43,881 nt of DNA, taken from positions 1 to 43,881 of IMG/VR virus record IMGVR_UViG_3300037587_000425; one strand, written 5' to 3'. Every line of letters begins with the position of its first letter. The first letter of the stretch is position 1. The position numbers and the translations under genes are program-made. The notes under the pieces were generated by a model that saw only the letters and a program-made list of their open reading frames with translations, did no database searches and was not told the DNA's origin. Below, piece after piece: positions 2,400 through 15,428 of this stretch. Source of the stretch: a virus.

Positions 2400-2407
2400 A
2401 CTTTGTG

Positions 2408-2910: not shown

Positions 2911-2966
2911 AACAAATCACTCCAGTTGATTGCGACTGAGCAAAGCGACTGAGCTCTGCCGTTATG
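2908..2966 (+). repeat. attC-like site 2
   Basis: 59 bp beginning CATAACAAATCACTCCAG and ending CTCTGCCGTTATG, with a GCGACTGAG repeat in the loop. Its left outer box contains the start codon of the TusA-like gene and its right outer box the stop codon of the gene ending at 2962. Orientation canonical on the + strand. Confidence 0.65.
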
Positions 2967-3180
2967 TATCGCCCAAATAAACTATTGAATCAGGATTAAC
3001 AACCAAATCTATGGTTGTTCCTCCGTGCCCCAGCGGGTGAACTATTACGTGAATACCGTCTTCTGTCTTGGTTTGAACCTTCATAAGAAATTCAGGCGAA
3101 ACCATTACTGAATTACCGTCTTTATCTTGGCTTTCAATTTCCATATTTAACAAATCAAATAAATCTTCTTTCATTTTCAT
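2962..3180 (-). CDS. hypothetical protein, 72 aa
   Basis: Starts MKMKEDLFDLLNMEIESQDK; the C-terminal half is beta-strand-like (GIHVIVHPLGHGGTTIDLVV). Cytoplasmic, no recognised family. It occupies a unit bounded by attC-like sites 2908-2966 and 3193-3253; its stop is inside the former. Confidence 0.6.
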   Translation of the reverse strand: MKMKEDLFDLLNMEIESQDKDGNSVMVSPEFLMKVQTKTEDGIHVIVHPLGHGGTTIDLVVNPDSIVYLGDT

Positions 3181-3192
3181 TTCTCCAAATTA

Positions 3193-3253
3193 CATAACAA
3201 ATAAATTAAATCGGAGCGCATAAAGACGCGCCCGTTTATTAATGGTCGTTATG
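3193..3253 (+). repeat. attC-like site 3
   Basis: 61 bp, CATAACAAATAAATTAAATC ... GTTTATTAATGGTCGTTATG, with a GCGC-rich hairpin top. The right outer box provides the stop of the gene at 3249. Nearly the same left arm as site 1. Confidence 0.7.
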
Positions 3254-3623
3254 TGCCTACTTTTTCACGCCAGCCTTTATAATCATAAATAGCATTCTTC
3301 AATTCTTCTTTTGCTGTATCTTCATTAATGTATTTCCAATAATCTTGCGCAATAATTTCAGCAGCAGTAGCTATGCGAACTAGCTTTCCAAGCCCAACAC
3401 ATAACAACTCATTCGAGCCGGACGCACTAACATTGTGCGGCTCTGGTTGCCTATAGTCACACATAAGGACACCCATAAAACAACCGCCATTGTGTCCTTT
3501 CTTAACTTTCCATCCAGAAGAGCATTTATCTTTATCGCTACCATTTCCGCCGCGATCACACTCAGAACAATCAACAAATAATCTCCCTTTAGTATCTTTC
3601 TCGCTGTATTTTGCTTTTTTCAT
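3249..3623 (-). CDS. cysteine-rich (zinc-ribbon-like) protein carrying a translated attC half-site
   Basis: Start placed at ATG 3623 (MKKAKYSEKDTKGRLFVDCS) because GGAG lies 8 bases upstream; a TTG 12 bases earlier is possible. The N-terminal half has CSEC, C and C spacings typical of a small zinc-binding domain. Residues NVSASGSNELL in the middle are the translation of an attC-like half-site (3398-3437), after which an unrelated helical half follows (LVRIATAAEIIAQDYWKYIN). The protein looks like two short cassette products fused through the site. Confidence 0.6.
   Translation of the reverse strand: MKKAKYSEKDTKGRLFVDCSECDRGGNGSDKDKCSSGWKVKKGHNGGCFMGVLMCDYRQPEPHNVSASGSNELLCVGLGKLVRIATAAEIIAQDYWKYINEDTAKEELKNAIYDYKGWREKVGT
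3398..3437 (+). repeat. translated attC-like half-site, copy 1 (NVSASGS)
   Basis: On the + strand CACATAACAACTCATTCGAG then CCGGACGCACTAACATTGTG. The first half equals the left arm of a standard attC (TAACAA..TC..TC.AGCCGGACG) but no right arm follows. On the gene strand it encodes NVSASGSNELL. Same block at 4017-4050 and, inverted, at 15489-15532. Confidence 0.65.
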
Positions 3624-3641
3624 CTTATTCTCCAATAAAAA

Positions 3642-3697
3642 TATAACAATAAAATCAAACCGACTCGCTACGCTCGCGGCTTATTAAAGCTGTTATA
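3642..3697 (+). repeat. attC-like site 4 (best match to a classical attC)
   Basis: 56 bp: TATAACAATAAAATCAAACC at the left, hairpin top GACTCGCTACGCTCGCGG, and GGCTTATTAAAGCTGTTATA at the right. Outer boxes are exact complements, the inner CCG/CGG boxes pair, and the distance from outer box to CCG is 15 bases on both arms, the same as in the classical aadA-type attC. The stop of the gene at 3693 lies in the right outer box. Confidence 0.8.
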
Positions 3698-3869
3698 ACG
3701 CTTGCAGGTAATCGCTCTCGAAGTCCAATAATTCCTTTTTAGCGTATTCCAAATCTTTACGTTTATCCTCAACCTCTTCTTTTAAATGAAGGTGTTGAAA
3801 TGCAAGCTCTTCAACTCTTTCCGCTGCATCATCTAGTTCCTGTCCTGTTTCAAATTCTTGTATAGCCAT
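3693..3869 (-). CDS. coiled-coil protein, 58 aa
   Basis: ATG at 3869 (MAIQEFETGQELDDAAERVE) has GGAG 9 bases upstream; an in-frame start at 3932 would overlap the previous gene. Heptad-like charged residues through most of the length predict one long helix. Function unknown. The site between it and the upstream gene is reduced to a short GATTAA/TTAATC palindrome next to TTATAACG. Confidence 0.6.
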   Translation of the reverse strand: MAIQEFETGQELDDAAERVEELAFQHLHLKEEVEDKRKDLEYAKKELLDFESDYLQAL

Positions 3870-3894
3870 TTTAATTAACTCCGCGTTATAACGA

Positions 3895-4116
3895 TTAAGC
3901 GTTAATCGCGTATTTATCTCTGTCAAACCCATCCTTACCTTCTCGTTTCGCTAAATCTATCTGTGCCGCGTAAAGTCCGTTTTCCGTATTTTGTTTTTCT
4001 ATTGTTGCCTCAAGCCTTAGCAGCTCATCCGAGCCGGACGCGCTTACATTTGGAGATTTCGTTTTGCATATCGCCGGCTCATAGCTATCAGCTTTTTCAT
4101 AATATTCTTTATTCAT
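3895..4116 (-). CDS. hypothetical protein with translated attC half-site, 73 aa
   Basis: ATG at 4116 follows GAGAGGCGCACG. The first 22 residues (MNKEYYEKADSYEPAICKTK) lead into NVSASGSDELL, the translated half-site, and then a helical tail. The leader before this ATG (CATAACGAAAACTATTGAGA then GGCGCACGATG) closely matches the leader of the rightward gene at 15429, which also carries NVSASGS. Confidence 0.55.
   Translation of the reverse strand: MNKEYYEKADSYEPAICKTKSPNVSASGSDELLRLEATIEKQNTENGLYAAQIDLAKREGKDGFDRDKYAINA
4017..4050 (+). repeat. translated attC-like half-site, copy 2
   Basis: GCTCATCCGAGCCGGACGCG followed by CTTACATT is a diverged copy of the block at 3398-3437; the CATAAC box has changed to CTTAGCAG. 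It still encodes NVSASGSDELL on the gene strand. Confidence 0.55.
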
Positions 4117-4139
4117 CGTGCGCCTCTCAATAGTTTTCG

Positions 4140-4448
4140 TTATGCAGTATGATCTATCTTTAATTCACACCAATAAGCAGGACAAGCTTCCTTCATCAGC
4201 CCGCGCAGCGCGGTTGGCTCGTCTGCCATTTTCCATCCTGTTGCTGTTTTATAAGCTATCGCTGAAGCGCCCGTAGTCTTATTTGTAAGTACATTTACTC
4301 CAATAGGCAAATATACAATACAAAGAGTTCCCGTTGGTGGCGGGGTTTCTTTAACAGAATGAAAATCCCGCATAACAAGGCAATTTAACGCCGACCCACT
4401 ACTGGGTCGGTTGGCTTCGCTTTCTGTGGCTTCGTTCTCATTTTTCAT
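4140..4448 (-). CDS. DUF551-like small phage protein
   Basis: The domain begins around MRDFHSVKETPPPTGTLCIV and ends YWCELKIDH, which resembles DUF551-type proteins (a short SVKDxLPPxG start, a Trp and Cys near the end). Two starts are possible: ATG 4373, inside the outer box of the attC-like site, and ATG 4448 with AAGGAG 8-9 bases upstream, which adds 25 residues encoded by the loop of that site. I give the latter because of its ribosome site. Role unknown; such genes are common in phage accessory regions. Confidence 0.55.
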   Translation of the reverse strand: MKNENEATESEANRPSSGSALNCLVMRDFHSVKETPPPTGTLCIVYLPIGVNVLTNKTTGASAIAYKTATGWKMADEPTALRGLMKEACPAYWCELKIDHTA

Positions 4449-4503
4449 GGTATTCATCTCCTTATTTGTCTGCCTGTGGTCGGGTTAATTGCAACGTTAT
4501 AAA
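4371..4503 (+). repeat. long attC-like site 5
   Basis: Left arm CATAACAAGGCAATTTAACG followed by CCGACC, right arm GGTCGGGTTAATTGCAACGT then TATA. The arms pair over TAAC, GCAATT, AAC and CCGACC. The 80-base loop holds a second hairpin (CCGACCCA/TGGGTCGG) and a ribosome site plus ATG. Length about 133 bp, similar to the long attC variants known from Vibrio. Confidence 0.65.
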
Positions 4504-4862
4504 CCTAGTTCTCTATGTTCGTACCAGAAAATAACAGGCTCATTTGTTAATTCAATCATTCCAAATCTTTCGGCGACTCTAAAATTAACCGATGTTTTTC
4601 TGGCTCTAGCAGTTTGCAATTCAATTTCTCTTCTAAACTCTTCAACACTAAATACGCTTTTAAATAAATTACATGGAGCGCATGCTGGCACTATGTTATC
4701 AATCACATCATTTTCAAGCTTCCATAGTTCTCCACCCCGTCTGTAAACCGGCTCAAAATGATCTGCATGCCAGCCTTTATTAGGTAAATTATCGCCGCAA
4801 TACCAGCAATGACCCTCTGATTTTTGCCAAATTATTTCACGTTGTTTTTTATTTAGCGCCAT
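4497..4862 (-). CDS. HNH endonuclease
   Basis: The start MALNKKQREIIWQKSEGHCW at 4862 is chosen because AGGAATATT precedes it. Residues about 18-65 form a classical HNH domain: CWYCG, then GWHADHFEPVYRRGGE, then NIVPACAPCNLFK, i.e. two CxxC zinc pairs and the catalytic His of ADH. At 121 residues it is a free-standing nuclease. The frame is open 35 codons further upstream, where it would encode a hydrophobic N-terminus (MGILEWAFIWVILMIWKIGQ) with no ribosome site; that piece may be a separate membrane peptide. Stop lies in the attC-like site at 4371-4503. Confidence 0.75.
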   Translation of the reverse strand: MALNKKQREIIWQKSEGHCWYCGDNLPNKGWHADHFEPVYRRGGELWKLENDVIDNIVPACAPCNLFKSVFSVEEFRREIELQTARARKTSVNFRVAERFGMIELTNEPVIFWYEHRELGL

Positions 4863-5019
4863 AATATTCCTGTTTATAACAATGCGTTCTATCGTCAACA
4901 GCCACGCCTGACCGATTTTCCATATCATTAAGATTACCCAAATAAATGCCCATTCTAATATCCCCATGTGTTAAGTGATGGCTATCCATCTAACCCAATG
5001 CGGTACCGTCTTAAATTTC
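4863..5019. other. gap between HNH gene and membrane-protein gene
   Basis: Contains the open 5' extension of the HNH frame (hydrophobic, from 4967) and, on the + strand, TATAACAATGCG and GTGTTAAGTG, which match attC outer boxes individually; their flanks do not pair, so I do not call a site. Confidence 0.35.
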
Positions 5020-5202
5020 TTATTCATTTTTATCCTCCGGCACAGCAATCAACACACACTTCTGATTACGTGGTAATTCTTTTTGACATTGATTTATTAA
5101 CTTATTCGTATCTCTAACTATAGATCCAAAATTTACATGCGTTATCACACCTATCGACCAAACCACTGTACCGAATACGAATATAATTGTTATTTTACCC
5201 AT
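5020..5202 (-). CDS. small membrane-anchored protein, 60 aa
   Basis: ATG at 5202 is preceded by GGAGATT. Residues 2-22 (GKITIIFVFGTVVWSIGVIT) are a signal-anchor-like membrane helix; the rest, ending CQKELPRNQKCVLIAVPEDK, is soluble with two Cys. The C-terminal pattern LPRNQxCVLxAVPE recurs in small membrane proteins of many phages, but I know no function for it. The C-terminal domain would most likely be periplasmic. Confidence 0.6.
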   Translation of the reverse strand: MGKITIIFVFGTVVWSIGVITHVNFGSIVRDTNKLINQCQKELPRNQKCVLIAVPEDKNE

Positions 5203-5227
5203 AATCTCCAATCTCCTCTAAATATAC

Positions 5228-5255
5228 TTGATATTCGCCAAACTTCTTATATAAT
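5228..5255 (+). promoter_or_regulatory. consensus-like sigma-70 promoter facing against the leftward operon
   Basis: TTGATA at 5228-5233, 16-base spacer, TATAAT at 5250-5255. A perfect -10 and near-perfect -35 in front of the only rightward gene embedded in the leftward operon. Confidence 0.6.
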
Positions 5256-5288
5256 CATATTAGAATGTTATTACTTATTAGAAATATT

Positions 5289-5465
5289 ATGCTTAAATCT
5301 GTACAAACAGTTCGTGAATTAAATGCCTTCGTAGACATGGTAGGCATAAGCTCGCATGAATCTCTTGTAGCTAAATTAGCAGAGTCTAATGTTGTGGTGT
5401 CTGCAAACATAGCCAGATTGATTTTAAGCCCTAAAACAACCGTACACCATAAGCAAGTTTATTAG
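5289..5465 (+). CDS. rightward hypothetical protein inside the leftward operon, 58 aa
   Basis: ATG 5289 (MLKSVQTVRELNAFVDMVGI) or ATG 5265, only a few bases after the predicted transcript start. The product is probably helical (SSHESLVAKLAESNVVVSAN). Its own promoter, opposite orientation and position, and antisense potential resemble regulatory genes placed against early operons. The reverse frame (51 aa, starting MFADTTTLD) lacks a ribosome site. No family recognised. Confidence 0.45.
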   Translation: MLKSVQTVRELNAFVDMVGISSHESLVAKLAESNVVVSANIARLILSPKTTVHHKQVY

Positions 5466-5528
5466 CTTCATAATCCTTTCTTGGCTTCACTTCTTACTCC
5501 TGGAATAGGAGGTCTCTTTCTGCCGTTG

Positions 5529-5705
5529 TCATTGTTTTTTCCTACGCTTCCACGCCTCATTTAAAAATCTATTAAAGAACTCCGGATTATTTGCATCCCA
5601 TCTTCTTAAAACTCCAGTCGTTCTGCTTTCTTGCTCTGACAGCTCTTTAAGACTTTTAAACCCTATCGCTCTCGCTTTGTCACTTGTTCCCATTGAATCA
5701 GTCAT
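5529..5705 (-). CDS. tiny helix-turn-helix-like protein, 58 aa (family A)
   Basis: Start ATG 5705 overlaps the upstream stop (ATGA), so it is translationally coupled. The protein reads MTDSMGTSDKARAIGFKSLK then ELSEQESRTTGVLRRWDANN and ends PEFFNRFLNEAWKRRKKQ. The order GFKSLKELS...LRRWDxNNPEFF matches the 7450-7716 product (GLKNLTVLA...LRAWDKHNPELF), so both belong to one small Cro-like or adaptor-like DNA-binding family. Likely regulator, target unknown. Confidence 0.6.
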   Translation of the reverse strand: MTDSMGTSDKARAIGFKSLKELSEQESRTTGVLRRWDANNPEFFNRFLNEAWKRRKKQ

Positions 5706-5920
5706 TTCAATTCCTCGTATTCTTTTAGGGCTTCATCAAACGAAACTCTATTGCCTGCATTATAAGTTTTAATACATGCTTTGCCTGCATCAACAACCTT
5801 ATCTGCCGCTTTGAGTTGTTTTAATAAATCCCTGATAATTTCTTTACCCTTTAATAAATTATACCGCGCATCTCCACACTCAACTCTTAAATGTTTCTTA
5901 GCTTTTTCTATTGTTTCCAT
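5702..5920 (-). CDS. helical hypothetical protein, 72 aa
   Basis: ATG at 5920 after AAAAGG (METIEKAKKHLRVECGDARY). Strongly charged and helix-prone, no membrane segment, no known family. Overlaps the next gene by four bases. Confidence 0.6.
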   Translation of the reverse strand: METIEKAKKHLRVECGDARYNLLKGKEIIRDLLKQLKAADKVVDAGKACIKTYNAGNRVSFDEALKEYEELK

Positions 5921-5959
5921 ATTAATTAACCTTTTAAAATATCCTGTACTTTGCTCGCT

Positions 5960-6002
5960 TTCTAAACACTACCTTGCACGCTCCGTATATTCTGCTGTTA
6001 TG
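5960..6002 (+). repeat. spacer repeat B, copy 1
   Basis: TTCTAAACACTACCTTGCAC followed by GCTCCGTATATTCTGCTGTT and ATG. A near-identical block is at 6558-6599. It ends in the GTTATG box of the attC family but has no matching left arm, so it may be the right half of a different attC type. Confidence 0.5.
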
Positions 6003-6007
6003 TGTCG

Positions 6008-6250
6008 CTACCATTCCAGCTCTTTTACGTTGAAACTTTCATTGCAGTTTGAACACTCCACATCATTAATCTCGAATGATTTATGTCCTTCATTCCAGCA
6101 TCCGTCTGGACAAGCTTGCGACAACACATGACCTTCCTCGTTGTGATCATACCCGCCTGTGTCAGTCTCATTTAGTAAGTCGAGCATGTGATCGCAATGA
6201 GGGCAATCAACCCAAACGCTAATATCTAATCTAGCTGTTACTTCTGTCAT
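6008..6250 (-). CDS. zinc-ribbon protein, 80 aa
   Basis: The start MTEVTARLDISVWVDCPHCD at 6250 follows AAAAGGTGATTT. CPHC near residue 16 and CSNC near residue 67, plus two more Cys in ACPDGC, give a two-knuckle zinc ribbon; the closing VECSNCNESFNVKELEW pattern recurs in small phage proteins. Probably a nucleic-acid or protein adaptor; no enzymatic motif. Confidence 0.65.
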   Translation of the reverse strand: MTEVTARLDISVWVDCPHCDHMLDLLNETDTGGYDHNEEGHVLSQACPDGCWNEGHKSFEINDVECSNCNESFNVKELEW

Positions 6251-6269
6251 AAATCACCTTTTAAAAACA

Positions 6270-6318
6270 CATAACAATAAAATCAAACGGAGCGCCGAAA
6301 GCCGCGCCCGCTTATTCT
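6270..6318 (+). repeat. attC-like site with decayed right arm
   Basis: CATAACAATAAAATCAAACG then a GCGCCG/GCGC-rich top and CCCGCTTATT, matching sites 3 and 4, but the expected CGTTATG end is replaced by CTGTCCGGTATAA. The gene ending at 6312 reads through this altered part. Confidence 0.5.
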
Positions 6319-6518
6319 GTCCGGTATAAACCCAGCGCCCAATTTTTATTTGCTCGCCATTGTTTAATGTCGCCAATCAATTGGTCAAACTGTTTAACGC
6401 TAATCAATCCACCATCTTCGTGACCAGTATCAATATTGTTACTTAATATCATTCCCAGCTCGTCATTATCGCTGACGTTTTTATAGGTTAATTTATTAAA
6501 TAATTTATCTCTGTCCAT
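6312..6518 (-). CDS. hypothetical protein, 68 aa
   Basis: ATG at 6518 (MDRDKLFNKLTYKNVSDNDE) with AGGATATAAAA upstream. Soluble, ends QWRANKNWALGLYRTE; the last residues are encoded by the remnant attC right arm. Its leader and start codon are a 52/53 match to those of the ssb gene on the other arm (16021-16073). Confidence 0.55.
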   Translation of the reverse strand: MDRDKLFNKLTYKNVSDNDELGMILSNNIDTGHEDGGLISVKQFDQLIGDIKQWRANKNWALGLYRTE

Positions 6519-6599
6519 TTTTATATCCTCAATTAACAATTATTGTGAAGCCGCGAATTCTAAATACTACCTGCGCGCTCCGTGTATTCTGTTGTTATA
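6516..6599. repeat. inverted copy of the ssb leader plus spacer repeat B copy 2
   Basis: 6516-6568 is the reverse complement of 16021-16073 with one mismatch, covering start codon, ribosome site (TTGAGGA-type) and GTTAATT-containing leader. 6558-6599 is repeat B (see 5960-6002), ending GTTATA. The shared leader shows that leftward and rightward arms exchange or copy cassette ends. Confidence 0.6.
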
Positions 6600-6600
6600 T

Positions 6601-6798
6601 CTATCCTCGCTCTGTCTGTAATTCTTTAACTGACTCGGCATCCGAATACTGCTCTTTAAATAAAGCTCTACCTATATTGTCCCAGCTAACATTCCATTGT
6701 TTCGCTTTAAAAGTTCCGCCAAGGCTGGCTTTCTCTGTTAATACAAAAGTTACGCCCTCACTATCTACGTGAGCTATTGTTTTAATAAGTGTTTTCAT
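6601..6798 (-). CDS. hypothetical protein, 65 aa
   Basis: ATG at 6798 (MKTLIKTIAHVDSEGVTFVL) has AGAGG 8 bases upstream; an in-frame start at 6855 lies within the attC-like site. Beta-rich N-terminus, then FKAKQWNVSWDNIGRALFKE. No family recognised. Ends TAG at 6601. Confidence 0.6.
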   Translation of the reverse strand: MKTLIKTIAHVDSEGVTFVLTEKASLGGTFKAKQWNVSWDNIGRALFKEQYSDAESVKELQTERG

Positions 6799-6819
6799 AA
6801 TTAAACCTCTAATAAAAAA

Positions 6820-6875
6820 TATAACAAATAAATCAAACCGACTCGCTACGCTCACGGCTTATTACATCCGTTATG
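6820..6875 (+). repeat. attC-like site 6
   Basis: 56 bp, TATAACAAATAAATCAAACC, top GACTCGCTACGCTCACGG, right arm GGCTTATTACATCCGTTATG. Near twin of site 4 (3642-3697): same length, same hairpin top with one change. Confidence 0.75.
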
Positions 6876-6880
6876 TGTCA

Positions 6881-7147
6881 TTATTCGTCATAAGCATTAT
6901 GCTTGATGCAAATATCATTTAAATCTATGCGTGCTCTAAACGTGGAAAATTCACCCTCCCATTTTCCAGTAACTTTTATGTATTTAGTGCCTTTTAATAT
7001 CTTGTTGTTTTCGTGCCTAGCTCTAGCGATAATAGTCAATTCTAATTCATCAAACTCATCGTCTGAGTAATTACTAAGCCAGTCGGACGCGCCGCAAAGA
7101 TAATCCTTGCGTGCGGTTGGTTGTGTTTCTTCGCTAAAATCCCACAT
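6881..7147 (-). CDS. hypothetical protein, 88 aa
   Basis: The ATG (7145-7147) is part of the outer box of the attC-like site 7145-7213; GAGG in that site is 14 bases away, a long spacing. The product starts MWDFSEETQPTARKDYLCGA and has a beta-rich C-terminus (YIKVTGKWEGEFSTFRARID). Family unknown. Bounded on both sides by attC-like sites. Confidence 0.6.
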   Translation of the reverse strand: MWDFSEETQPTARKDYLCGASDWLSNYSDDEFDELELTIIARARHENNKILKGTKYIKVTGKWEGEFSTFRARIDLNDICIKHNAYDE

Positions 7148-7213
7148 AACAAATCATTTAACCTCATTCACTTCGTTTATTGGGACAGCTGCGCTGCCAG
7201 TTAATATTTAACG
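7145..7213 (+). repeat. attC-like site 7
   Basis: CATAACAAATCATTTAACCT ... CAGCTGCGCTGCCAGTTAAT then ATTTAACG. The right half, read on the minus strand (TTAACTGGCAGCGCAGCTGT), is identical to the site at 11825-11897 on the other arm, so the two operons share this site allele. The upstream gene (7164-7409) is translated through most of it. Confidence 0.65.
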
Positions 7214-7409
7214 TCGGTAGACTTATAATTCTATCGTGTAGCACGTCCTGGTATTGCTGCATTAGCTTTAGCTGTTTTCTTAGTCGATCTTTTTCGTCCT
7301 CACAAAGAGTTATGAAAGACTCGTTAAAAATTATAAATTTGTATAACTTTCCTGTCTTTACGCTTAATTCTTCAAGCTCTTTTTTTAGTCTATCTTTAAA
7401 GTCTTCCAT
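7164..7409 (-). CDS. Acb2/Tad1-hairpin-like small helical protein (candidate anti-defence)
   Basis: MEDFKDRLKKELEELSVKTG, KLYKFIIFNESFITLCEDEK and DRLRKQLKLMQQYQDVLHDR follow the pattern of the short two-helix hairpin proteins (F..RL..E..EL..K...L..FI....F..L.....LL..QL..M..Y...L..R) that include the Acb2 and Tad1 cyclic-nucleotide sponges used against CBASS and Thoeris defence. That is family resemblance, not proof. The last about 17 residues (LPTLNINWQRSCPNKRSE) are encoded by the attC-like site and are probably an add-on. ATG at 7409 after GGAGATAACT. Confidence 0.55.
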   Translation of the reverse strand: MEDFKDRLKKELEELSVKTGKLYKFIIFNESFITLCEDEKDRLRKQLKLMQQYQDVLHDRIISLPTLNINWQRSCPNKRSE

Positions 7410-7449
7410 AGTTATCTCCGTAGTTGCCCTGCAAGGCGTTCAAAATGCT

Positions 7450-7716
7450 TTATACATCTCCCGAATTAGAAACATTAAAATCATCCATGGCCACCCTGAC
7501 TTGTGCTGCGGCTTCTTGTCGTTGCTGTAATTCAATAGCTTCTAGTGATAACTTTGTAACCGCGCCCAAAATAACTATCTCAAATAATTCAGGGTTATGT
7601 TTATCCCATGCGCGTAACGTGTCGCAGGTTCTGCTTACCATTTTAGCTAAGACTGTTAAGTTTTTTAATCCACCCAGTTTTGCTTTTTCACTTGCTTTTA
7701 ATTCACCTTTTTTCAA
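7450..7716 (-). CDS. helix-turn-helix-like regulator, 88 aa (family A)
   Basis: Begins with TTG at 7716, six bases after GAGG; no upstream ATG exists. The N-terminal 50 residues, EKAKLGGLKNLTVLAKMVSR then TCDTLRAWDKHNPELFEIVI, resemble small phage DNA-binding proteins in which a helix-turn-helix is followed by a W..x.P.LF signature. The C-terminus is a charged helix. It is the first intact gene after the leftward promoter, a usual place for an early regulator. Confidence 0.6.
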   Translation of the reverse strand: MKKGELKASEKAKLGGLKNLTVLAKMVSRTCDTLRAWDKHNPELFEIVILGAVTKLSLEAIELQQRQEAAAQVRVAMDDFNVSNSGDV

Positions 7717-7728: not shown

Positions 7729-7881
7729 TTATGAGCGATTAACAACAGCCCTTCTTTTCATTATCTTATAAGCAAAGGGTTTTGGATAATCATTCATAAC
7801 CCCAATGGGAACGCCTAATACCTCAGACGTCTCTTTTATATTTTTAAATCCCTTTGATTTTAATTTGTCTCTTGTGTTTAT
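7729..7881 (-). pseudogene. promoter-proximal family A helix-turn-helix gene without a normal start
   Basis: The frame ending TAA at 7729-7731 reads NTRDKLKSKGFKNIKETSEV, LGVPIGVMNDYPKPFAYKIM, KRRAVVNRS and is clearly related to the 5529 and 7450 products. It opens right after a TGA, with ATA as first codon. An ATG in another frame (MYELNKHKRQIK) lies at the predicted transcript start, so one base too many or too few separates start and body. Either a broken gene, a sequence error, or a frameshifted or leaderless gene. Confidence 0.4.
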
Positions 7882-7952
7882 TCAACTCATACATTCAATA
7901 TACACGGTTATTTTGTAAAAGCAAGTGTTTTTTAGATTTCAGTCAAAAAAAA
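7881..7952. repeat. 72-bp perfect inverted repeat, left copy
   Basis: Exact reverse complement of 10393-10464. It contains the T-tract of the adjacent terminator, the -35 and -10 elements and the predicted transcript start. No gene is encoded on it. Confidence 0.9.
7897..7924 (-). promoter_or_regulatory. leftward early promoter
   Basis: On the minus strand TTGCTT (7919-7924), 16-base spacer, TATATT (7897-7902). It lies immediately after the terminator at 7945-7974 and before the whole leftward small-gene operon. Identical to the rightward promoter at 10421-10448. Confidence 0.65.
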
Positions 7953-7974
7953 GACCCCTGTTTTACGAGGGATC
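7945..7974 (-). terminator. rho-independent terminator, leftward
   Basis: Minus strand GATCCCTCGTAAAACAGGGG then TC and eight T. Stem of about 7 bp with a GTAAAAC loop, followed by the T-tract that belongs to the inverted repeat. Confidence 0.75.
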
Positions 7975-8137
7975 TTCTACTGCCAGGGCAAGAGGTGAAT
8001 CAAAACCTAGCACGTCTTGGTTGAAACTTCGCGACGGTGGACGAAGGTTGCAATTTCCATACAAGTATGTACTATTGCGTTATCAGCTGTTCAAAGGCTG
8101 ATAATACTGGGCTACTTATCATGGCGACCCAATATAG
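7945..8137 (-). ncRNA. candidate structured small RNA, leftward
   Basis: A strong promoter (8143-8170) and a terminator (7945-7974) bound about 190 bases with no convincing open frame on the minus strand. The segment contains an 8-bp hairpin (TTATCAGC/GCTGATAA), a CATAC/GTATG hairpin and a GGGC/GCCC pairing near the 5' end. A plus-strand frame across it (8017-8211) has no ribosome site. Mirror image of the unit at 10240-10400. Confidence 0.5.
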
Positions 8138-8142
8138 GTAAA

Positions 8143-8170
8143 ATTATACACTACCTTTATATATTTGCAA
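8143..8170 (-). promoter_or_regulatory. strong leftward promoter for the small RNA
   Basis: Minus strand TTGCAA (8165-8170), 16-base spacer, TATAAT (8143-8148) preceded by TG. Predicted start near 8137. Confidence 0.6.
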
Positions 8171-8207
8171 CGCCGGTGAAGCCCATCTTAATTTATGGCG
8201 GTTTGGC

Positions 8208-8630
8208 ATGAAAAAAAATGACGATTATTTTTATAACGATAACGAGCTTGATAGGCGTGAAGCAAATATTGAGCTAGCAAAAAGATCAATTAAGTCAGCC
8301 GATCCAAAGATATCAATCAGAACATCTAAAGAAATAGCAACCGATCTAGAAATAAAAGCATCGAGCATCCTTCAAGAAAGCAAACGAAGGAAAGTTTTGT
8401 TTCAAAAAGCAAGAGCCGAAAGAAAGAATGAAACCATAGAAGATCGAATAAACCGAGAAAAGAAAATAAAAAGACGCTGTTTTAATAAAGAAATAAGAAT
8501 AAAAGCAACAAAACAAAGACGCACAGAATTTAATTTAAAAAGACCTCAATTAATACTTAGAATGCTGGCTAACGACATACTTTACGAATGTGCTGTGGGC
8601 GGCTGTAAAAATAAAGACATAACTCAATGA
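8208..8630 (+). CDS. highly basic hypothetical protein, 140 aa
   Basis: ATG at 8208 (MKKNDDYFYNDNELDRREAN). Very rich in Lys and Arg, helical, ending in a short Cys-containing tail (ECAVGGCKNKDITQ). Charge suggests nucleic-acid binding. The ribosome site is weak (GGCGGTTTGGC). First gene of the central region; family not recognised. Confidence 0.6.
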   Translation: MKKNDDYFYNDNELDRREANIELAKRSIKSADPKISIRTSKEIATDLEIKASSILQESKRRKVLFQKARAERKNETIEDRINREKKIKRRCFNKEIRIKATKQRRTEFNLKRPQLILRMLANDILYECAVGGCKNKDITQ

Positions 8631-8633
8631 AGG

Positions 8634-8837
8634 GGGCGAAATAGTCGTATAGATACTATTTACCGCCTCATATTAAATAAGAGGTCGTACTTCCAACGAT
8701 ATCAGCGAACCTGCATGGGTTGCCGGAAAGAAAACACTAGTTAATGCCGTTACACCCTTAAGGCATTAGTTGACTACACTAGAGTGTTACTAAGTGTAAA
8801 AAGGTAGAGGTTAAATGGGTGGAATGCGAGGCTAATT
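8634..8837 (+). other. long structured intergenic region 1
   Basis: No gene found in about 200 bases. Nested palindromes are visible: AACACT...AGTGTT outside, TTAATGCC...GGCATTAG inside, and a shorter AACC/GGTT hairpin upstream. This suggests a folded leader or RNA element rather than coding DNA. Confidence 0.4.
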
Positions 8838-9020
8838 ATGAACGAATGCGAAAAAATATTGAAATCATTAGCAAGAAGCGCGGGGATTGTATCTCGCTCT
8901 GTAAATAGTGGTGATTATATTCCTGAATTCAGATATAAGAATTTTGAGAAAGATATTAAAGCCGCTAAGGAATATTTAGCCAGGCAGACACAGGCCTTAA
9001 GTTTAGATAAAAGAGATTGA
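8838..9020 (+). CDS. small helical protein, 60 aa
   Basis: ATG at 8838 (MNECEKILKSLARSAGIVSR) after GCGAGGCTAATT. Charged, helical, no membrane part. Ends six bases before the next start, whose ribosome site (GAGG) overlaps its stop, so the two are likely coupled. Function unknown. Confidence 0.55.
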   Translation: MNECEKILKSLARSAGIVSRSVNSGDYIPEFRYKNFEKDIKAAKEYLARQTQALSLDKRD

Positions 9021-9025
9021 GGAAT

Positions 9026-9607
9026 ATGAGTCTTATTTATGGATTTGGTGTTAATGATGCTGATTATCGCGTTACATCAACAATTGATGGAAAGCGAGTA
9101 GTTTGTCCGTATTACAGAGCGTGGACGGGTATGCTTGGGAGGTGTTTTTCAGTAAGCTCCCTTAAAAAATATCCGTCATACGCTGGTTGTACGGTAGCCG
9201 ATGAATGGCGCTCTTTCCTCGCTTTTAAAGCGTGGATGGAAGCGCAGGATTGGCAAGGCAAACATTTAGATAAAGACATTATAATTCCAGAAAATAAGGT
9301 TTACAGCCTAGATACATGCGTTTTTGTTAGTGGAGCGATCAATACATTATTAGTGGATTGCAAAGCCTCAACAGGAAAATTCCCTAAAGGTGTTTGTTTT
9401 GATAAATCCGAAGGGAAATTTATTGCCAGAATGAGAGTTTTCGGGAAAAGCAAACGGCTTGGTCTGTTTGATTGTCCAGAAGAAGCTGGAAATGCGTATC
9501 GTGAAGCAAAAAGGTTGCATATTTTACGGGTAGCCAGCACTGAACCTGACGTCAGGGTTAAGCAAGGGCTGTACCGTCATTCTCAATTATATAAACGTAC
9601 CGGATAA
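9026..9607 (+). CDS. HNH/AP2-type homing endonuclease-like protein, 193 aa
   Basis: ATG at 9026 has GAGG five bases upstream. The sequence follows the layout of the T7-group free-standing or intron-borne endonucleases: YYRAWTGMLGRCFS, then YPSYAGCTVADEWRSF, then GKHLDKDIIIPENKVYS and CVFVSGAINTLLVDC, with an AP2-like DNA-binding C-terminus (GKFIARMRVFGKSKRLGLFD). Such enzymes nick or cut related phage genomes and move themselves. It sits between two long structured non-coding regions, but I cannot identify intron splice sites or split exons. Confidence 0.65.
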   Translation: MSLIYGFGVNDADYRVTSTIDGKRVVCPYYRAWTGMLGRCFSVSSLKKYPSYAGCTVADEWRSFLAFKAWMEAQDWQGKHLDKDIIIPENKVYSLDTCVFVSGAINTLLVDCKASTGKFPKGVCFDKSEGKFIARMRVFGKSKRLGLFDCPEEAGNAYREAKRLHILRVASTEPDVRVKQGLYRHSQLYKRTG

Positions 9608-9938
9608 GTTAACACCCTTTTGGGGTATTAGTATTACAAGTAAGAGTATTTAGATGAAAGGTTGTAGTAACGCGAAAGCGTAAGGGCATCACCAACATTG
9701 CCGAGTGGTGCGGAGTTTGCAAAGCAAATAAGGACTTTGAACGTTGGTTAGCTGCCAATAGCCTTATGGAGCGATGTTAGCCGGGTTATTAAGTTGATCA
9801 TAATAACTGTCAATACCTTAGGTCAGCTACAGCCTTTCTTCTAGATACTTTTATTAATAAGTAATATGGATACGGGTAACAGGATACTAATGCTATCCAC
9901 CCTTGGGGAGACTGCGTCTTAATTATACAGGATTAATT
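9608..9938 (+). other. long structured intergenic region 2
   Basis: About 330 bases without a clear gene. A frame at about 9659-9780 reads VVVTRKRKGITNIAEWCGVC then KANKDFERWLAANSLMERC and looks protein-like (CxxC, WxxA) but has no start codon; an ATG one frame away (9654) would need a 1-base shift. The rest holds short palindromes (ACACCC/GGGGT). Confidence 0.35.
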
Positions 9939-10175
9939 TTGAGCTCAAAGATTAAACATATAATAAACAAATACCCTCAACTAACTGGCAAAGAGGACTT
10001 TATTCAAGTTGTACTGGATATCAGGGAAGCGTTTAAGCTGGGAAAAGTTCCTTTTAGCATCTCTGTAGGTGATTGGTGCTCCGGAAGCTTGGAGAAGTAC
10101 TACAAAGGCCTAAGGCTTGATAAAGAAAAATTCAGGAAGAAAAAGAAAAGACGCAGGGGTTGGGTTAAATATTGA
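9939..10175 (+). CDS. basic hypothetical protein, 78 aa
   Basis: TTG at 9939 with AGGA seven bases upstream is preferred; an in-frame TTG at 9903 is possible. The protein (SSKIKHIINKYPQLTGKEDF...) ends in a very basic tail (KEKFRKKKKRRRGWVKY), suggesting nucleic-acid binding. The 18-base leader CTTAATTATACAGGATTA recurs at 10185-10202 just after the gene. Confidence 0.5.
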   Translation: MSSKIKHIINKYPQLTGKEDFIQVVLDIREAFKLGKVPFSISVGDWCSGSLEKYYKGLRLDKEKFRKKKKRRRGWVKY

Positions 10176-10205
10176 GATAAAACACTTAATTATACAGGAT
10201 TATTA

Positions 10206-10233
10206 TTTCGATATGCAGAAAAAGTGCTATAAT
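10206..10233 (+). promoter_or_regulatory. extended -10 promoter, rightward
   Basis: TTTCGA at 10206-10211, 16-base spacer, TGC-TATAAT (10225-10233), a perfect extended -10. Predicted start near 10240. Drives the structured RNA unit. Confidence 0.6.
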
Positions 10234-10239
10234 AAAAAC

Positions 10240-10400
10240 GTAGTAGGTCTAAGCCACTTTAATTAGTGGCTTTATAATAAAACACACCTCACGCCTCTAT
10301 AACGTAGTCTGCGCCGTAAGGCATAAGAAGCGTAAGCGCACCAGAGGGGTTGTTTTATTAACGCCCGCCTCCTTCGCCCGCTTTATTGCGGGTTTTTTTT
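10240..10400 (+). ncRNA. candidate structured small RNA, rightward
   Basis: Between the promoter at 10206-10233 and the terminator at 10377-10400 there is no convincing coding frame but strong folding: AAGCCACT/AGTGGCTT near the 5' end, then nested CCTCT/AGAGG and TGCGC/GCGCA arms. Size about 160 bases. Together with the mirror unit at 7945-8137 it suggests two phage regulatory RNAs expressed outward from the control region. Confidence 0.5.
10377..10400 (+). terminator. rho-independent terminator, rightward
   Basis: CCCGC-TTTATT-GCGGG followed by eight T; the T-tract is the first part of the right inverted-repeat copy. Confidence 0.85.
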
Positions 10401-10464
10401 GACTGAAATCTAAAAAACACTTGCTTTTACAAAATAACCGTGTATATTGAATGTATGAGTTGAA
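10393..10464. repeat. 72-bp perfect inverted repeat, right copy
   Basis: Exact reverse complement of 7881-7952; the copies are about 2.4 kb apart and point their promoters outward. Confidence 0.9.
10421..10448 (+). promoter_or_regulatory. rightward early promoter
   Basis: TTGCTT (10421-10426), 16-base spacer, TATATT (10443-10448), then the first small gene and the recombination operon. Same sequence as the leftward promoter, so the two arms are probably expressed together. Confidence 0.65.
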
Positions 10465-10479
10465 AAAAAGGTGAATGTT

Positions 10480-10569
10480 ATGATGTGCGAAGAAATTAAG
10501 TGCCCAGGCTGTGACGAAATAGCGATGCAAGATTTTGATAAAAGCTGGAACACAAAAATTCACACTTAA
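10480..10569 (+). CDS. tiny cysteine-containing protein, 29 aa
   Basis: ATG at 10480 is seven bases after AAAAAGGTGAA, the same strong ribosome site as at 43351 and 43701. Product begins MMCEEIKCPGCDEIAMQDFD; three Cys (C, CPGC) could hold a zinc ion. First gene after the rightward promoter. Confidence 0.5.
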   Translation: MMCEEIKCPGCDEIAMQDFDKSWNTKIHT

Positions 10570-10594
10570 TTTTTAAACCGATAGGTAAAATAAA

Positions 10595-11161
10595 ATGAAT
10601 TCAATAATCGTATTTGATACAGAAACAACCGGCATTCCTAATTGGAAAATTCAATCTGGTGATGAATCGCAACCTCATATTGTCCAGCTTGCCGCTTTAC
10701 AGGTTGATCTTGAGTCACGAAAAGTAATTCAAAGCATAGATTTAATTGTTAAGCCTGATGGATGGGAAATACCCCAAGAAACAATTGATATTCATGGCAT
10801 CACTAATGAACACGCTATGGAAGTTGGTATTCCAGAAGAAGCGGTATTAAATATCTTTCTGAACTTATGGAATGGTCGTAAACGAGTTGCTTACAACACC
10901 ACGTTTGATAATCGCATTATACGGATTGCAACCAAACGCTACAAAAATGAACAGGTAATTACCAACTGGAAAGAAGGTGATTATGAATGCGCAATGATTG
11001 CATCCAAAAAAGCAATGGGTGTTAAATCGGTAAAGCTTGTAGATGCGTACAAATACTTCACCGGTAAAGAATTAAAAGATGCTCATTCTGCTATGAGTGA
11101 CAGCAAGGCATGCATGGAACTTTACTTTGAAATAAACAATAAAGAATCTGTTGTTGCGTAA
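10595..11161 (+). CDS. DnaQ-like 3'-5' exonuclease (DEDD family)
   Basis: 188 residues. Motif I FDTETTG (residues 7-13), the central Asp of YNTTFDNRII (about 100-109), and motif III HSAMSDSKAC (about 164-173, the His of DEDDh) are all visible. The enzyme removes nucleotides from 3' ends of DNA; with no phage polymerase present it more likely acts in recombination, end processing or nucleotide salvage than as a proofreading subunit. Followed directly (TAAATG) by the next gene. Confidence 0.85.
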   Translation: MNSIIVFDTETTGIPNWKIQSGDESQPHIVQLAALQVDLESRKVIQSIDLIVKPDGWEIPQETIDIHGITNEHAMEVGIPEEAVLNIFLNLWNGRKRVAYNTTFDNRIIRIATKRYKNEQVITNWKEGDYECAMIASKKAMGVKSVKLVDAYKYFTGKELKDAHSAMSDSKACMELYFEINNKESVVA

Positions 11162-11281
11162 ATGAAAACAGACTTTGAACAAAGAACTGCTGACTTTCAC
11201 GCTGGATTAATCCGTGATGATCGCGTGACTTGTTCAGAGAATCAGATCGTAAATGATGTGACGAATGTTTTTGCAAATTGA
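11162..11281 (+). CDS. very small acidic protein, 39 aa
   Basis: ATG immediately after the exonuclease stop; encodes MKTDFEQRTADFHAGLIRDD and a Val/Asn-rich tail ending VFAN. No ribosome site of its own is obvious, so it would depend on coupling. Function unknown. Confidence 0.4.
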   Translation: MKTDFEQRTADFHAGLIRDDRVTCSENQIVNDVTNVFAN

Positions 11282-11343
11282 ATTCGGAATAAAAGAACCG
11301 TTATTTTATTTGCGGTAAACCTGCCGAAATGGAGAAATTTATT

Positions 11344-11559
11344 ATGAAAAAACTTTACTACAGAATACTAAGAGATTTTACTGCCGCAAAATTACTGGCT
11401 GCTTTAATAGCGAACCCTGAACGTTATAAATATATTGCAGAAAAAGTGCGGTCAGGCGAACTCTCTAACAATGCGGCAACTGAAAAAAATGTAACGAAAG
11501 CCATTATTATGGCGGATCAATTTGTTGATGGAATTACTAGAAATACTTTTGATTCATAA
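11344..11559 (+). CDS. helical hypothetical protein, 71 aa
   Basis: ATG at 11344 with GGAG 9 bases upstream (MKKLYYRILRDFTAAKLLAA). Soluble helical protein. Its stop TAA is in the left outer box of the attC-like site 11555-11625. No family recognised. Confidence 0.6.
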   Translation: MKKLYYRILRDFTAAKLLAALIANPERYKYIAEKVRSGELSNNAATEKNVTKAIIMADQFVDGITRNTFDS

Positions 11560-11625
11560 CGACACTTAATAAACGGGCGCGTCTTTTGCGCTGTCCAGGT
11601 GAATGAGGTTGAATGATTTGTTATG
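11555..11625 (-). repeat. attC-like site 8 (rightward arm)
   Basis: CATAACGACACTTAATAAAC, GGGCGCG/GCGC hairpin top, and GAATGATTTGTTATG. Read on the minus strand it has the canonical arm order (TAACAAATCATTCAACCTC first), so again antiparallel to the genes. The right outer box supplies the start codon of the next gene. Confidence 0.65.
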
Positions 11626-11829
11626 ACTAGATTAGTGAAATGTGATAATTGCGGAGCAACTGACGATTGGGATATGGGCAAACCTTTTTTTCCAGATGGC
11701 GCTGTACTTCAAATACGTGACGATAACGGCAGTGAAAACTTTATTATTGAGGTTGAGGTTTGCGTAAAATGTAAAGATGAATTGCTAAATGCATTTCCAT
11801 TTCTTAAAAAGTGCATTGCTGAGTTATAA
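11623..11829 (+). CDS. zinc-ribbon protein, 68 aa
   Basis: The ATG lies in the attC outer box (GTTATGACT). CDNC at residues 7-10 and CVKC near residue 47 form two zinc knuckles. GAGG sits 14 bases upstream. Stop TAA lies in the next attC-like site, so the gene is exactly one site-to-site unit. Role unknown. Confidence 0.6.
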   Translation: MTRLVKCDNCGATDDWDMGKPFFPDGAVLQIRDDNGSENFIIEVEVCVKCKDELLNAFPFLKKCIAEL

Positions 11830-11897
11830 CGTTGCAATTAACTGGCAGCGCAGCTGTCCAAATGAACGAAGTGAGTGAGGTTTAATTTTTTGTTATA
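11825..11897 (-). repeat. attC-like site 9 (rightward arm)
   Basis: TATAACGTTGCAATTAACTG, GCAGCGCAGCTGTCC top, ...TTTTTTGTTATA. Shares the TTAACTGGCAGCGCAGCTGT block and the GAACGAAGTGA stretch with the leftward site at 7145-7213. Confidence 0.65.
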
Positions 11898-11904
11898 TTT
11901 TGGT

Positions 11905-12134
11905 GAGGGTATGGCGGAATTGGCCTACGCACCTTATTAATAAGGCGGTATACGCACCTTGTTAATAAGGCGGTAAAGGACATAACATGAAAAGCGTGAA
12001 GTTTGGATTCGACGGAATCCTTTCAAGACTGAAAAGCGAGATCGCCGGAAGTGGGAAGTACCTTAATGTGGAAGCGGCGAGTGTACAGTAAACGTGAAAA
12101 CTCCTTGCAGGTTCAAGTCCTGCTGCCCTCACCA
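11905..12134 (+). tRNA. tRNA-Leu-like element with a large insertion (probably a pseudo-tRNA)
   Basis: The 5' end GAGGGTA pairs with TGCCCTC before A-CCA at the 3' end (7 bp, one G-T), the D arm GCG-GAATTGGCCTA-CGC matches tRNA-Leu, and the T arm is perfect (GCAGG-TTCAAGT-CCTGC). But the anticodon arm cannot form 5 bp with a 7-base loop, and about 145 extra bases lie between D and T arms. These include a 25-bp tandem repeat, a ribosome site and a 34-codon frame (ATG 11987), and a stretch TTTGGATTCGACGG identical to the tmRNA 5' signature. I cannot see group I intron core elements. Confidence 0.4.
11926..11975 (+). repeat. 25-bp tandem duplication in the tRNA-like element
   Basis: Two abutting copies of TACGCACCTTRTTAATAAGG-CGGTA differing at one base (A/G). 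Each contains the palindrome CCTTATTAATAAGG or its variant, at the place of the anticodon arm. Confidence 0.85.
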
Positions 12135-12185
12135 AAATATAACGACGATTGTTAATTTGCGCCAACTCATAAAAGAGGTGATGAT

Positions 12186-12911
12186 ATGTTTAATAAAGAC
12201 AAAAAAGAAATATCCGTTTTAGAAGGCGAAAGTAAAAAAATAACTCCTATGGTGATGATGCAAATGGCTGAGGCTCAAGGCGCACCAGTTGAGCAGATGG
12301 AGCGGTTGTGGGAGTTAAATGTAAAGGTTGAGGCGGCGAACGCGAGAAAAGCTTTTTTTGGAGCTTTAGCGGAATTTAAGAAAAACCCGCCTCGCGTCGT
12401 TAAGGATAAGCTTAATTCTCAATATGGCTCGGATTATGTTGGTATCGGCAATATGGTTACAACAGCAAGCGAATCAATGGGACAGTTTGGGTTGACGCAC
12501 TCATGGGTGTTCGGAGAAGGCCAGAACGGAGAAATTATTTGTACTTGCTTTATGTCTCATGAACTAGGCCACCAAGAATCAGTAACATTAACCAGCCCAA
12601 TAGATACGTCTGGATCTAAAAATCCGCTGCAAGGAAGAAAATCAACAAGAACCTATCTCAAACTTGAAACTTTTGAGGCGGTCACTGGAATGGTATCAGT
12701 TAGCGGGAATATTGATGATGATGGTAATTCATCAAGCGGCTGTGTCTCATTTGATCAGTCTGAGGAGATGGAAAAGCTTGCGAAGGATGCCGGAGTGGAT
12801 AAAGGCCGATTCTTAACTTATTTCAAATGTAAATCGTTTAGTGAAATGCCAGCAAACCAATATAAAAATGCACTAGCGGCAATCAAAAAGAAGAAGGAGT
12901 CTAAAAAATGA
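12186..12911 (+). CDS. ERF-family single-strand annealing protein
   Basis: 241 residues. The ERF core is visible: VEAANARKAFFGALAEFKKN, then SQYGSDYVGIGNMVTTASES and GQFGLTHSWVFGE, then LETFEAVTGMVSVSGNIDDD. ERF proteins (P22 Erf group) form rings on ssDNA and anneal complementary strands, promoting genome circularisation and recombination. The gene is coupled to the next (ATGA at 12908-12911) and lies in a recombination block with YqaJ exonuclease and SSB. The start follows AAAGAGGTGATGAT. Confidence 0.85.
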   Translation: MFNKDKKEISVLEGESKKITPMVMMQMAEAQGAPVEQMERLWELNVKVEAANARKAFFGALAEFKKNPPRVVKDKLNSQYGSDYVGIGNMVTTASESMGQFGLTHSWVFGEGQNGEIICTCFMSHELGHQESVTLTSPIDTSGSKNPLQGRKSTRTYLKLETFEAVTGMVSVSGNIDDDGNSSSGCVSFDQSEEMEKLAKDAGVDKGRFLTYFKCKSFSEMPANQYKNALAAIKKKKESKK

Positions 12912-13963
12912 ATAATTTAGTCGTATTAGAAAATGTTAATGCTGTTGAGGTATTTGGTGGCAAAGGATTAGACGATCTTTTGGGCAAGATTACAGAAGAA
13001 GCTAAAAGTATCACTCCTGATTTGACTACAAAAAAAGGCCGTGATGAGATTGCAGGCATAGCGTATAAGGTGGCGAAGTCTAAAACGTATCTTGATGGAT
13101 TACGCAAAGACTTGGTTTCTGAGTGGAAAACAAAAGCAAAAGCCGTTGATGCAGAAGGCAGGAAAATGCGCGATACGCTTGATTCTTTAAAGGAAGAAGT
13201 TAGACGACCTTTGACTGAATGGGAGGATGCAAAAAAAGAACGTATTGATGCCCATGAGTCAGGGATAAGGGAAATAAGTGGAGCGGCAGAACACACGGCT
13301 AATAATTGGATGACATTACCACTGGAAGCTATGGTTGATCGGTTAAAAGAAATTGAAAATGAAGTGATAGAAAGCTACGAAGAATTTGCACCTGTTGCGG
13401 CAGCCGCAAAAGATAGAACAATGGTATCAATGAAAGAATCTATTGTAAAGCGTGAAACATACGACAAAGAGCAGGCAGAACTTGAAAAACTACGTGCCGA
13501 GGCTGCGGAGCGCGAACAAAAAGAAGCCGAGGAAAAGCTACGTTTAGAAGGTGAAGAACGCGCAAAACTTGAGGCCGAAGCGAAAGCAGAGGAAGAGAAA
13601 GAGCGTGTAAAATTGCAAGCAGAGATAACAGAAAAAGAAAAAAATGCCGCTATAGCTGGAAAGATTGAAGCCGAAAGAAAAGCCAAGCAAGCCGAAGAAA
13701 ATGTTAAAATAGAAGTAGAAAAAGCGGCTCAAGCAGAGCGAGATCGCATCGAGCAAGAACGAATAAATGAAGAATTAGCAGCTAAGAAACGTGAAGCAAA
13801 CAAGGCGCATAAATCAAAAATCAAAAATGCGGCGGCAAAAGCGATGGTTGATTTTTTGATGGCGTATGACTCAGGAGAAAGGCCTTTGACATTAGCGCAA
13901 GCAAACCTAGTCGTTACCGCTATTGCAAAAGGCCAGATTCCATATACAACTATTTCTTATTGA
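12908..13963 (+). CDS. long coiled-coil protein of the recombination operon
   Basis: 351 residues. N-terminal about 150 residues are globular-helical (KGRDEIAGIAYKVAKSKTYL...), then a long Glu/Lys/Ala-rich coiled coil (about 175-300), then a short C-terminal domain (KAMVDFLMAYDSGERPLTLA). Proteins of this shape commonly sit between phage annealing proteins and YqaJ nucleases (DUF1351-like), probably as a scaffold for the recombination complex; that role is inference. GGAG lies 9 bases upstream of the ATG. Confidence 0.7.
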   Translation: MNNLVVLENVNAVEVFGGKGLDDLLGKITEEAKSITPDLTTKKGRDEIAGIAYKVAKSKTYLDGLRKDLVSEWKTKAKAVDAEGRKMRDTLDSLKEEVRRPLTEWEDAKKERIDAHESGIREISGAAEHTANNWMTLPLEAMVDRLKEIENEVIESYEEFAPVAAAAKDRTMVSMKESIVKRETYDKEQAELEKLRAEAAEREQKEAEEKLRLEGEERAKLEAEAKAEEEKERVKLQAEITEKEKNAAIAGKIEAERKAKQAEENVKIEVEKAAQAERDRIEQERINEELAAKKREANKAHKSKIKNAAAKAMVDFLMAYDSGERPLTLAQANLVVTAIAKGQIPYTTISY

Positions 13964-13972
13964 GGAATTAAC

Positions 13973-14602
13973 ATGATTTATTCAGAAGAAGAATACCCGC
14001 AAGGGTCAGACGAATGGCAATCAATCCGCGCTGGAAAAGTAACAGCCTCAAAGATTACCGATATTATGGCCAAACTGAAATCAGGAAAGCCAGGCGCAGG
14101 ACGCACGACTTACATGGGACAATTAATAGCCGAGAGGCTTACAGGCGTTAAATCAGACAGTTTTAGCAATGCAGCAATGCAATGGGGTGTCGAGACTGAA
14201 CCTCAAGCTAGAGCGGCTTACGAGTTCTTAAATGATGTTGAGGTTAAGCAATTTGCATTTGTTGATCATCCATCTATTGAGTTTGCTGGAATGAGTCCAG
14301 ATGGAGAGGTTTGTACTGATGGAGGATTAGAGATTAAATGTCCAAATACTGCGACGCACATTGATTTTTTGATAACAAGCGTAATCCCTAAAAAATATCA
14401 AGACCAAATGCAATGGCAGATGGCTTGCAAGCTGTGGAAATGGGACGATTATATGAGCTTTGACCCACGTATGCCAGAACACCTAAACAAGAAAATTGTC
14501 CGCGTCTACCGTGACGACAAATATATTCAAGAAATGGAAATGGAAGTAATTAAGTTTAATTCTGAAATTGATGAAAAGTTGAAAATATTGGAATCGTTAT
14601 GA
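13973..14602 (+). CDS. YqaJ-like (lambda Exo type) DNA exonuclease
   Basis: 209 residues with the family order: QGSDEWQSIRAGKVTASKIT near the N-terminus, QWGVETEPQARAAYEF, the catalytic MSPDGEV and LEIKCPNTATH (Asp and E-x-K motif), and YQDQMQWQMAC. It is expected to resect one strand of dsDNA ends to expose ssDNA for the ERF annealing protein. Start ATG has GAGG upstream. Confidence 0.85.
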   Translation: MIYSEEEYPQGSDEWQSIRAGKVTASKITDIMAKLKSGKPGAGRTTYMGQLIAERLTGVKSDSFSNAAMQWGVETEPQARAAYEFLNDVEVKQFAFVDHPSIEFAGMSPDGEVCTDGGLEIKCPNTATHIDFLITSVIPKKYQDQMQWQMACKLWKWDDYMSFDPRMPEHLNKKIVRVYRDDKYIQEMEMEVIKFNSEIDEKLKILESL

Positions 14603-14612
14603 TAAATCACAA

Positions 14613-14918
14613 ATGCTAGACAGAGAAAAGAGATTACAGGTCGACGAGTTTTTAACTAGAAAGGCCGAGGTTATCGATTATATTAAGCATAATAAAGCTG
14701 AGATATTGAGGCTCAAAGAAGTATTTATGATTGAGAATAATGATAGGGATTGCAAGTTAATCCAGATATCAATTCAATTCGTGGAGGGTAAAAACTTAAT
14801 TCTGAAAACAGAGCTATCAGGATTGTCTGCACCCAAAATAGCGAAGCTGACAGGAATAAACGTTAATCAGATTAGATATCAAGAATCTCTGTTTAATCGG
14901 AGTAGAATTATATTGTGA
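14613..14918 (+). CDS. hypothetical protein with C-terminal helix-turn-helix-like segment, 101 aa
   Basis: MLDREKRLQVDEFLTRKAEV begins a charged helical N-terminus; LSGLSAPKIAKLTGINVNQI near residues 70-90 looks like a helix-turn-helix as in small terminase or regulatory proteins. No good ribosome site at the ATG. Ends 8 bases before the next start, whose GAGGAG overlaps its stop. Possibly DNA binding; function unknown. Confidence 0.55.
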   Translation: MLDREKRLQVDEFLTRKAEVIDYIKHNKAEILRLKEVFMIENNDRDCKLIQISIQFVEGKNLILKTELSGLSAPKIAKLTGINVNQIRYQESLFNRSRIIL

Positions 14919-14926
14919 GGAGCTGT

Positions 14927-15130
14927 ATGAGTACAATAATCGAGAGAGAAGACAACGCGTTCACCGTAAAAGAGTTAAAAGAATATCTCAATAGTGTAAA
15001 TGAAGACTTGCCTGTAAATATTTGTGTGATGCAAAGGCTTGACGATGTAGGAGGTTCTGCATCTATATTTTCGCTGGAGTCAATGAGCGAGAACGGCGAA
15101 AAAATAAACTTAACGGGTTACAACACATGA
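14927..15130 (+). CDS. hypothetical protein, 67 aa
   Basis: ATG 14927 (MSTIIEREDNAFTVKELKEY) with GAGGAG 6-7 bases upstream. A short segment KELKEYLNSVNEDLPVNICV is typical of small phage proteins of unknown function. Its TGA overlaps an ATG in frame with the following gene (ATGA). Confidence 0.6.
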   Translation: MSTIIEREDNAFTVKELKEYLNSVNEDLPVNICVMQRLDDVGGSASIFSLESMSENGEKINLTGYNT

Positions 15131-15141
15131 AGAGGAACGAA

Positions 15142-15402: not shown

Positions 15403-15428
15403 CGTCAACAATTGAAAGGCGCACGATT

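Follow-up and report, generated by a model that had tools for sequence, protein, structure and literature searches.

The window analysed here is a single virus record of 43,881 bases, which has no repeats at its ends and is possibly incomplete, and its terminase and portal are P22/SU10-like. Two divergent early operons face away from a central segment. The left operon (1840–7716, minus strand) comprises about twenty small genes, among them a RusA-like resolvase (2029–2349), and the right operon (10483–18235, plus strand) carries a DnaQ-like exonuclease (10595–11161), Erf (12186–12911), a YqaJ/RecE exonuclease (13973–14602) and a single-stranded DNA-binding protein, SSB (16050–16523). Each operon is headed by one copy of a 72-nt inverted repeat, as an earlier note on this DNA had claimed when it placed the start of two small-gene operons at the repeats. 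Directly after the right copy stand a Shine-Dalgarno sequence and an intact small gene (10483–10569, plus strand) with a possible zinc ribbon (CPGC). On the left, an apparent relic gene (7729–7890, minus strand) has ATG AGT TGA inside the repeat, followed by an open frame (INTRDKLKSKGFKNIKETSEV...). The relic belongs to a trio of paralogous small left-arm proteins on the minus strand: its frame after the TGA is homologous to the open reading frame at 5529–5705 (blastp E 5e-5), whose protein resembles that of 7450–7716 (1e-9). The trio has a single distant relative, which is found in Pseudoalteromonas phage H6/1.

The left copy (7881–7952) and the right copy (10393–10464) are exact reverse complements over 72/72 nt, in agreement with the earlier note, and are spaced 2.44 kb apart; read in the direction of transcription, both are TTTTTTTTGACTGAAATCTAAAAAACACTTGCTTTTACAAAATAACCGTGTATATTGAATGTATGAGTTGAA. 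Extending the arms to 7877–7952 and 10393–10468 left 75/76 positions identical, and the borders are abrupt, with 11/60 matching bases in each 60-nt flank. By comparison, the longest exact inverted repeat with arms more than 100 nt apart measured 14–16 nt in 20 dinucleotide-shuffled windows and at most 16 nt in 21 related phage loci. The repeat is real and not a product of chance. It occurs twice in the 43,881-base record, with no third copy. No relatives of it were found by megablast in phages and plasmids, by distant blastn in phages, by exact pattern in viral contigs or by blastn in related records. Protein searches with portal and Erf returned at most one viral relative and no genomes, and that relative lacks the repeat; Rfam and tRNA scans gave no matches.

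Terminator-like stems adjoin the T-tracts of both copies (7978–7949, minus strand; 10376–10393, plus strand), so that the T-tract of an adjacent terminator, proposed previously for each copy, is indeed present. The left stem (GATCCCT..AGGGGTC, 7945–7978, minus strand) and the right stem (CCCGC..GCGGG, 10376–10400, plus strand), the latter closing the central plus-strand operon, are both GC-rich and differ from each other, and in each case the T8 tract forms the first 8 nt of the repeat, which is where identity between the copies begins. Because two different GC-rich stems precede the eight T's, both copies start with the T-tail of an intrinsic terminator, and each stops just short of the first gene of its divergent operon.

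The earlier note had also read a promoter and transcript start into each copy. The motif TTGCTT-16-TATATT is present in both, with a putative −35 at 7924–7919 and −10 at 7902–7897 pointing leftward, and at 10421–10426 and 10443–10448 pointing rightward, but it is weak by sequence: it matches the promoter consensus at 8/12 positions, is missing from the consensus-scan list, ranks 144–145 of 87,682 positions under a hand-made sigma70 matrix, and is equalled or exceeded in score by 26.5% of shuffles of the repeat. Given this weak score, a transcript start within the repeat is something we infer, and the putative promoter is suggested by position, with a terminator behind it and an operon's first gene ahead of it on both sides. 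A better-scoring sigma70-like site (TTGAAT-17-TAAAAT, 7885–7857) overlaps the end of the left copy only.

Between the copies lie four genes in the same direction, ending at the right terminator (8208–8630, 8838–9020, 9017–9607 and 9903/9939–10175, plus strand). The HNH/AP2 endonuclease gene at 9017–9607 is the only one of these with relatives, and was the sole match when the central segment was searched against phages, plasmids, viral contigs and related records; no relatives were found for the proteins of 8208–8630 and 9939–10175, two orphans that are small and basic. Further elements lie in the segment. A candidate leftward small RNA (7949–8170, minus strand) would start from a good sigma70-like promoter, TTGCAA-16-TATAAT (8170–8143), and end at the left terminator; it is structured over about 190 nt, with a predicted fold z of −3.5, and has no Rfam match. 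The intergenic stretch 3′ of the HNH gene (9605–9940, plus strand) forms an imperfect hairpin that is very long (MFE −103 kcal/mol, z −4.4), also without an Rfam match, and 10238–10400 (plus strand) is structured (z −2.8), with a TATAAT box just upstream (10228–10233) and its end at the right terminator. A 15-nt direct repeat, AATTATACAGGATTA, occurs at 9927–9941 and 10187–10201, either side of the open reading frame at 9939–10175.

Within the operons, spacers of both arms share one form, in which a gene's stop is followed by ACATAAC, an imperfect hairpin of about 50 nt, GTTATGT and the next gene. These spacers resemble integron attC sites, having complementary R″/R′ boxes with the TAACAA...CGTTA asymmetry at gene borders, and stop codons sit in the R″ boxes and some start codons in the R′ boxes. 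A two-half attC weight matrix proved too loose, and we used instead a strict rule that asked for TAACAA and CGTTA on opposite sides, together with fully complementary boxes. Six strict sites were found in the window, where shuffles predict 0.22 (at most 2 in 300); 548 kb of other loci contained 3. Three are in the left arm (2620–2697, 2907–2967 and 3192–3254, plus strand), where weaker sites follow at 3641, 4371, 6819 and 7144 (plus strand), and three in the right arm (11554–11626, 11826–11897 and 15681–15773, minus strand), and all of these are antisense to the genes. Altogether, attC-like sites span 2620–7206 on the plus strand and 11554–17302 on the minus strand. Under a looser rule, none of the nine sites in the phage arms (0/9) was in sense with the genes, all nine being antisense in both arms, and one further isolated site was detected at 32302, in the structural region. 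An attC-like half site of about 30 nt, CACAATGTTAGTGCGTCCGGCTC, is also found within three reading frames (3397–3437, 4023–4070 and 15489–15533), where it is translated as NVSASGS(N/D)E. The dispersed spacer repeats had been considered as promoters of the PeSL (promoter early stem-loop) kind, a reading that was dropped when they proved attC-like.

Scanning bacterial genomes with the same attC pattern recovered arrays in marine Gammaproteobacteria, including nine sites in Thalassomonas sp. RHCl1 on the same contig as an integron integrase (456 bits) and four sites in Halioglobus, whose genome holds an integron integrase at 435 bits. One phage site matched a Thalassomonas integron site at 78% over 64 nt (E 4.8e-7); no terminase relatives were found in 148 genomes of that genome's family. 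Across four bacterial arrays, 30/30 sites were in sense with the genes, and Shewanella and Vibrio phage integrons follow the usual sense order. Clusters of attC sites are known in lytic phages and can be recombined by IntI1, and those described comprise typical same-direction arrays as well as one phage whose sites are divergent (Qi et al. 2023, PMC9892861). The operons headed by the repeat, though not the repeat itself, resemble such phage CALINs (attC clusters lacking integrase) in that cassette-like genes are split by attC-like sites and no integron integrase (TIGR02249) is encoded in the record. They differ from the CALINs of that study in that both divergent arms carry sites, all of them antisense to the genes, and we found no report of a consistently reversed, two-armed attC arrangement in the literature searched.

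On balance, we favour an account in which a T-tract and promoter module was recently copied between the early arms and now drives both. The module would consist of the terminator T-tract, an upstream A/T-rich element, the early promoter and roughly the first 10 bases of the transcript. Recent copying or gene conversion, which the earlier note had offered as one explanation of the identity, is well supported by the 72/72 match and sharp edges, since the other same-sense spacer repeats common to both arms are 66–92% identical. One copy would have given rise to the other, whether it was copied across or converted from arm to arm, and the location of the junctions in A/T-rich ends (T8 at one end, TTGAA[T/A]AAA at the other) points to short-homology annealing, for which the phage's own Erf annealing protein and YqaJ/RecE exonuclease could have supplied the machinery. 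The host RNA polymerase would in that case initiate on the two arms at the same time, so that whatever acts on the promoter would affect both, and the duplicate module may have been kept because the two arms start together. Co-regulation of the two operons by one factor is only plausible, as the putative promoter scores poorly by sequence and lacks relatives. The direction of copying appears to have been right to left, because the leftward frame stops two codons after the ATG in the repeat and the right copy leads into an intact gene; the left operon's first gene apparently lost its start at the edge of the repeat, though it could instead have decayed independently. Counting against the module account, the repeats that the operons share across the arms are attC-like and not modules of the same kind, the promoter motif is not significant by its score, no relative was found to carry the repeat, and the better-scoring sigma70-like site touches the left copy alone.

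A copied module of this sort resembles the lambda pL/pR layout and the PeSL cassettes of T4-type phages, which join an intrinsic terminator to an early promoter at the borders of operons, recur within one genome and are thought to aid module shuffling (PMC4503421, PMC3950731). The present repeat likewise lies at operon borders and recurs in its genome, with stems and T-tracts in place and a putative early promoter that is weak by sequence. It departs from PeSL cassettes, which occur in many copies at shuffling hot spots, in having two copies in this record, in taking in the T-tract but not the stem, and in being carried by a virus of 44 kb whose terminase is P22-like.

A broader, more tentative reading takes the attC-like sites into account: both early operons may possibly be integron-type cassette arrays with reversed attC sites and identical promoter modules, a two-armed platform that trades genes with integrons on the host chromosome, whose integrase would carry out the recombination. 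It is unlikely, by comparison, that homologous or annealing recombination inverts the segment 7881–10464 in the population and thereby keeps the arms identical. Perfect 72-nt inverted arms at this distance, in a phage encoding Erf and proteins of the RecE type, would suit such an exchange, but all four central genes run one way to the right terminator, and both outward promoters would stay where they are after inversion, so that nothing would be switched. Nor is a dedicated enzyme in evidence, as the record encodes no serine invertase (PF00239) and gave no match to tyrosine recombinases (PF00589) in what is possibly an incomplete sequence, with positive controls. The invertible segments of phages Mu (G) and P1 (C) are likewise a few kb bounded by inverted repeats, but here no serine invertase is encoded and no gene spans the boundary, so that inversion would swap nothing. 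The segment could invert only by general recombination, flipping the central genes alone.

A lambda-like immunity region, with pL and pR carrying identical operators and a regulator encoded between them, appears less probable again. In lambda, pL and pR are two outward early promoters around a segment of ~2.4 kb, and the outward putative early promoters here enclose a segment of about that length, with two orphan small basic proteins inside and early recombination genes to the right. Against this, the promoters are letter-identical, unlike those of lambda, no repressor-like or integrase match was recognised, an HNH enzyme stands where a cI/cro pair would be, and the repeat shows no clear dyad (the best, at the T-tract, is 9/13). 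With invertase, integrase and repressor not found, programmed inversion and a lambda-type switch are both unsupported.

It is very improbable that the arms bound a small mobile element bearing the HNH gene, as its terminal inverted repeats: they do enclose that endonuclease gene, but no transposase was recognised among the central open reading frames, the flanks (ending in CTTGTGTTTA on one side and beginning with AAAAAGGTG on the other) show no convincing target-site duplication, and no further copy of such an element was found in this genome, in phages or in plasmids. An assembly artefact or fold-back is the least probable reading of all, for although this is a single metagenomic record without independent coverage, the flanks diverge at once, the terminator stems differ, the operons are coherent on both sides, and 72 nt is shorter than the usual sequencing read.

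Under the favoured account of recent module copying, the two repeats look like a shared “on” switch, copied recently, for two opposed early gene blocks. Should both copies be active, a single 72-nt sequence would time the whole early programme, its two copies being unable to drift apart, and the locus would offer a clean case in which to study how phage promoters are copied and evolve in concert. With the reversed, host-type attC-like sites in the operons that these repeats head, it becomes testable whether accessory genes pass between lytic phages and integrons of the host chromosome, and why the sites are inverted.
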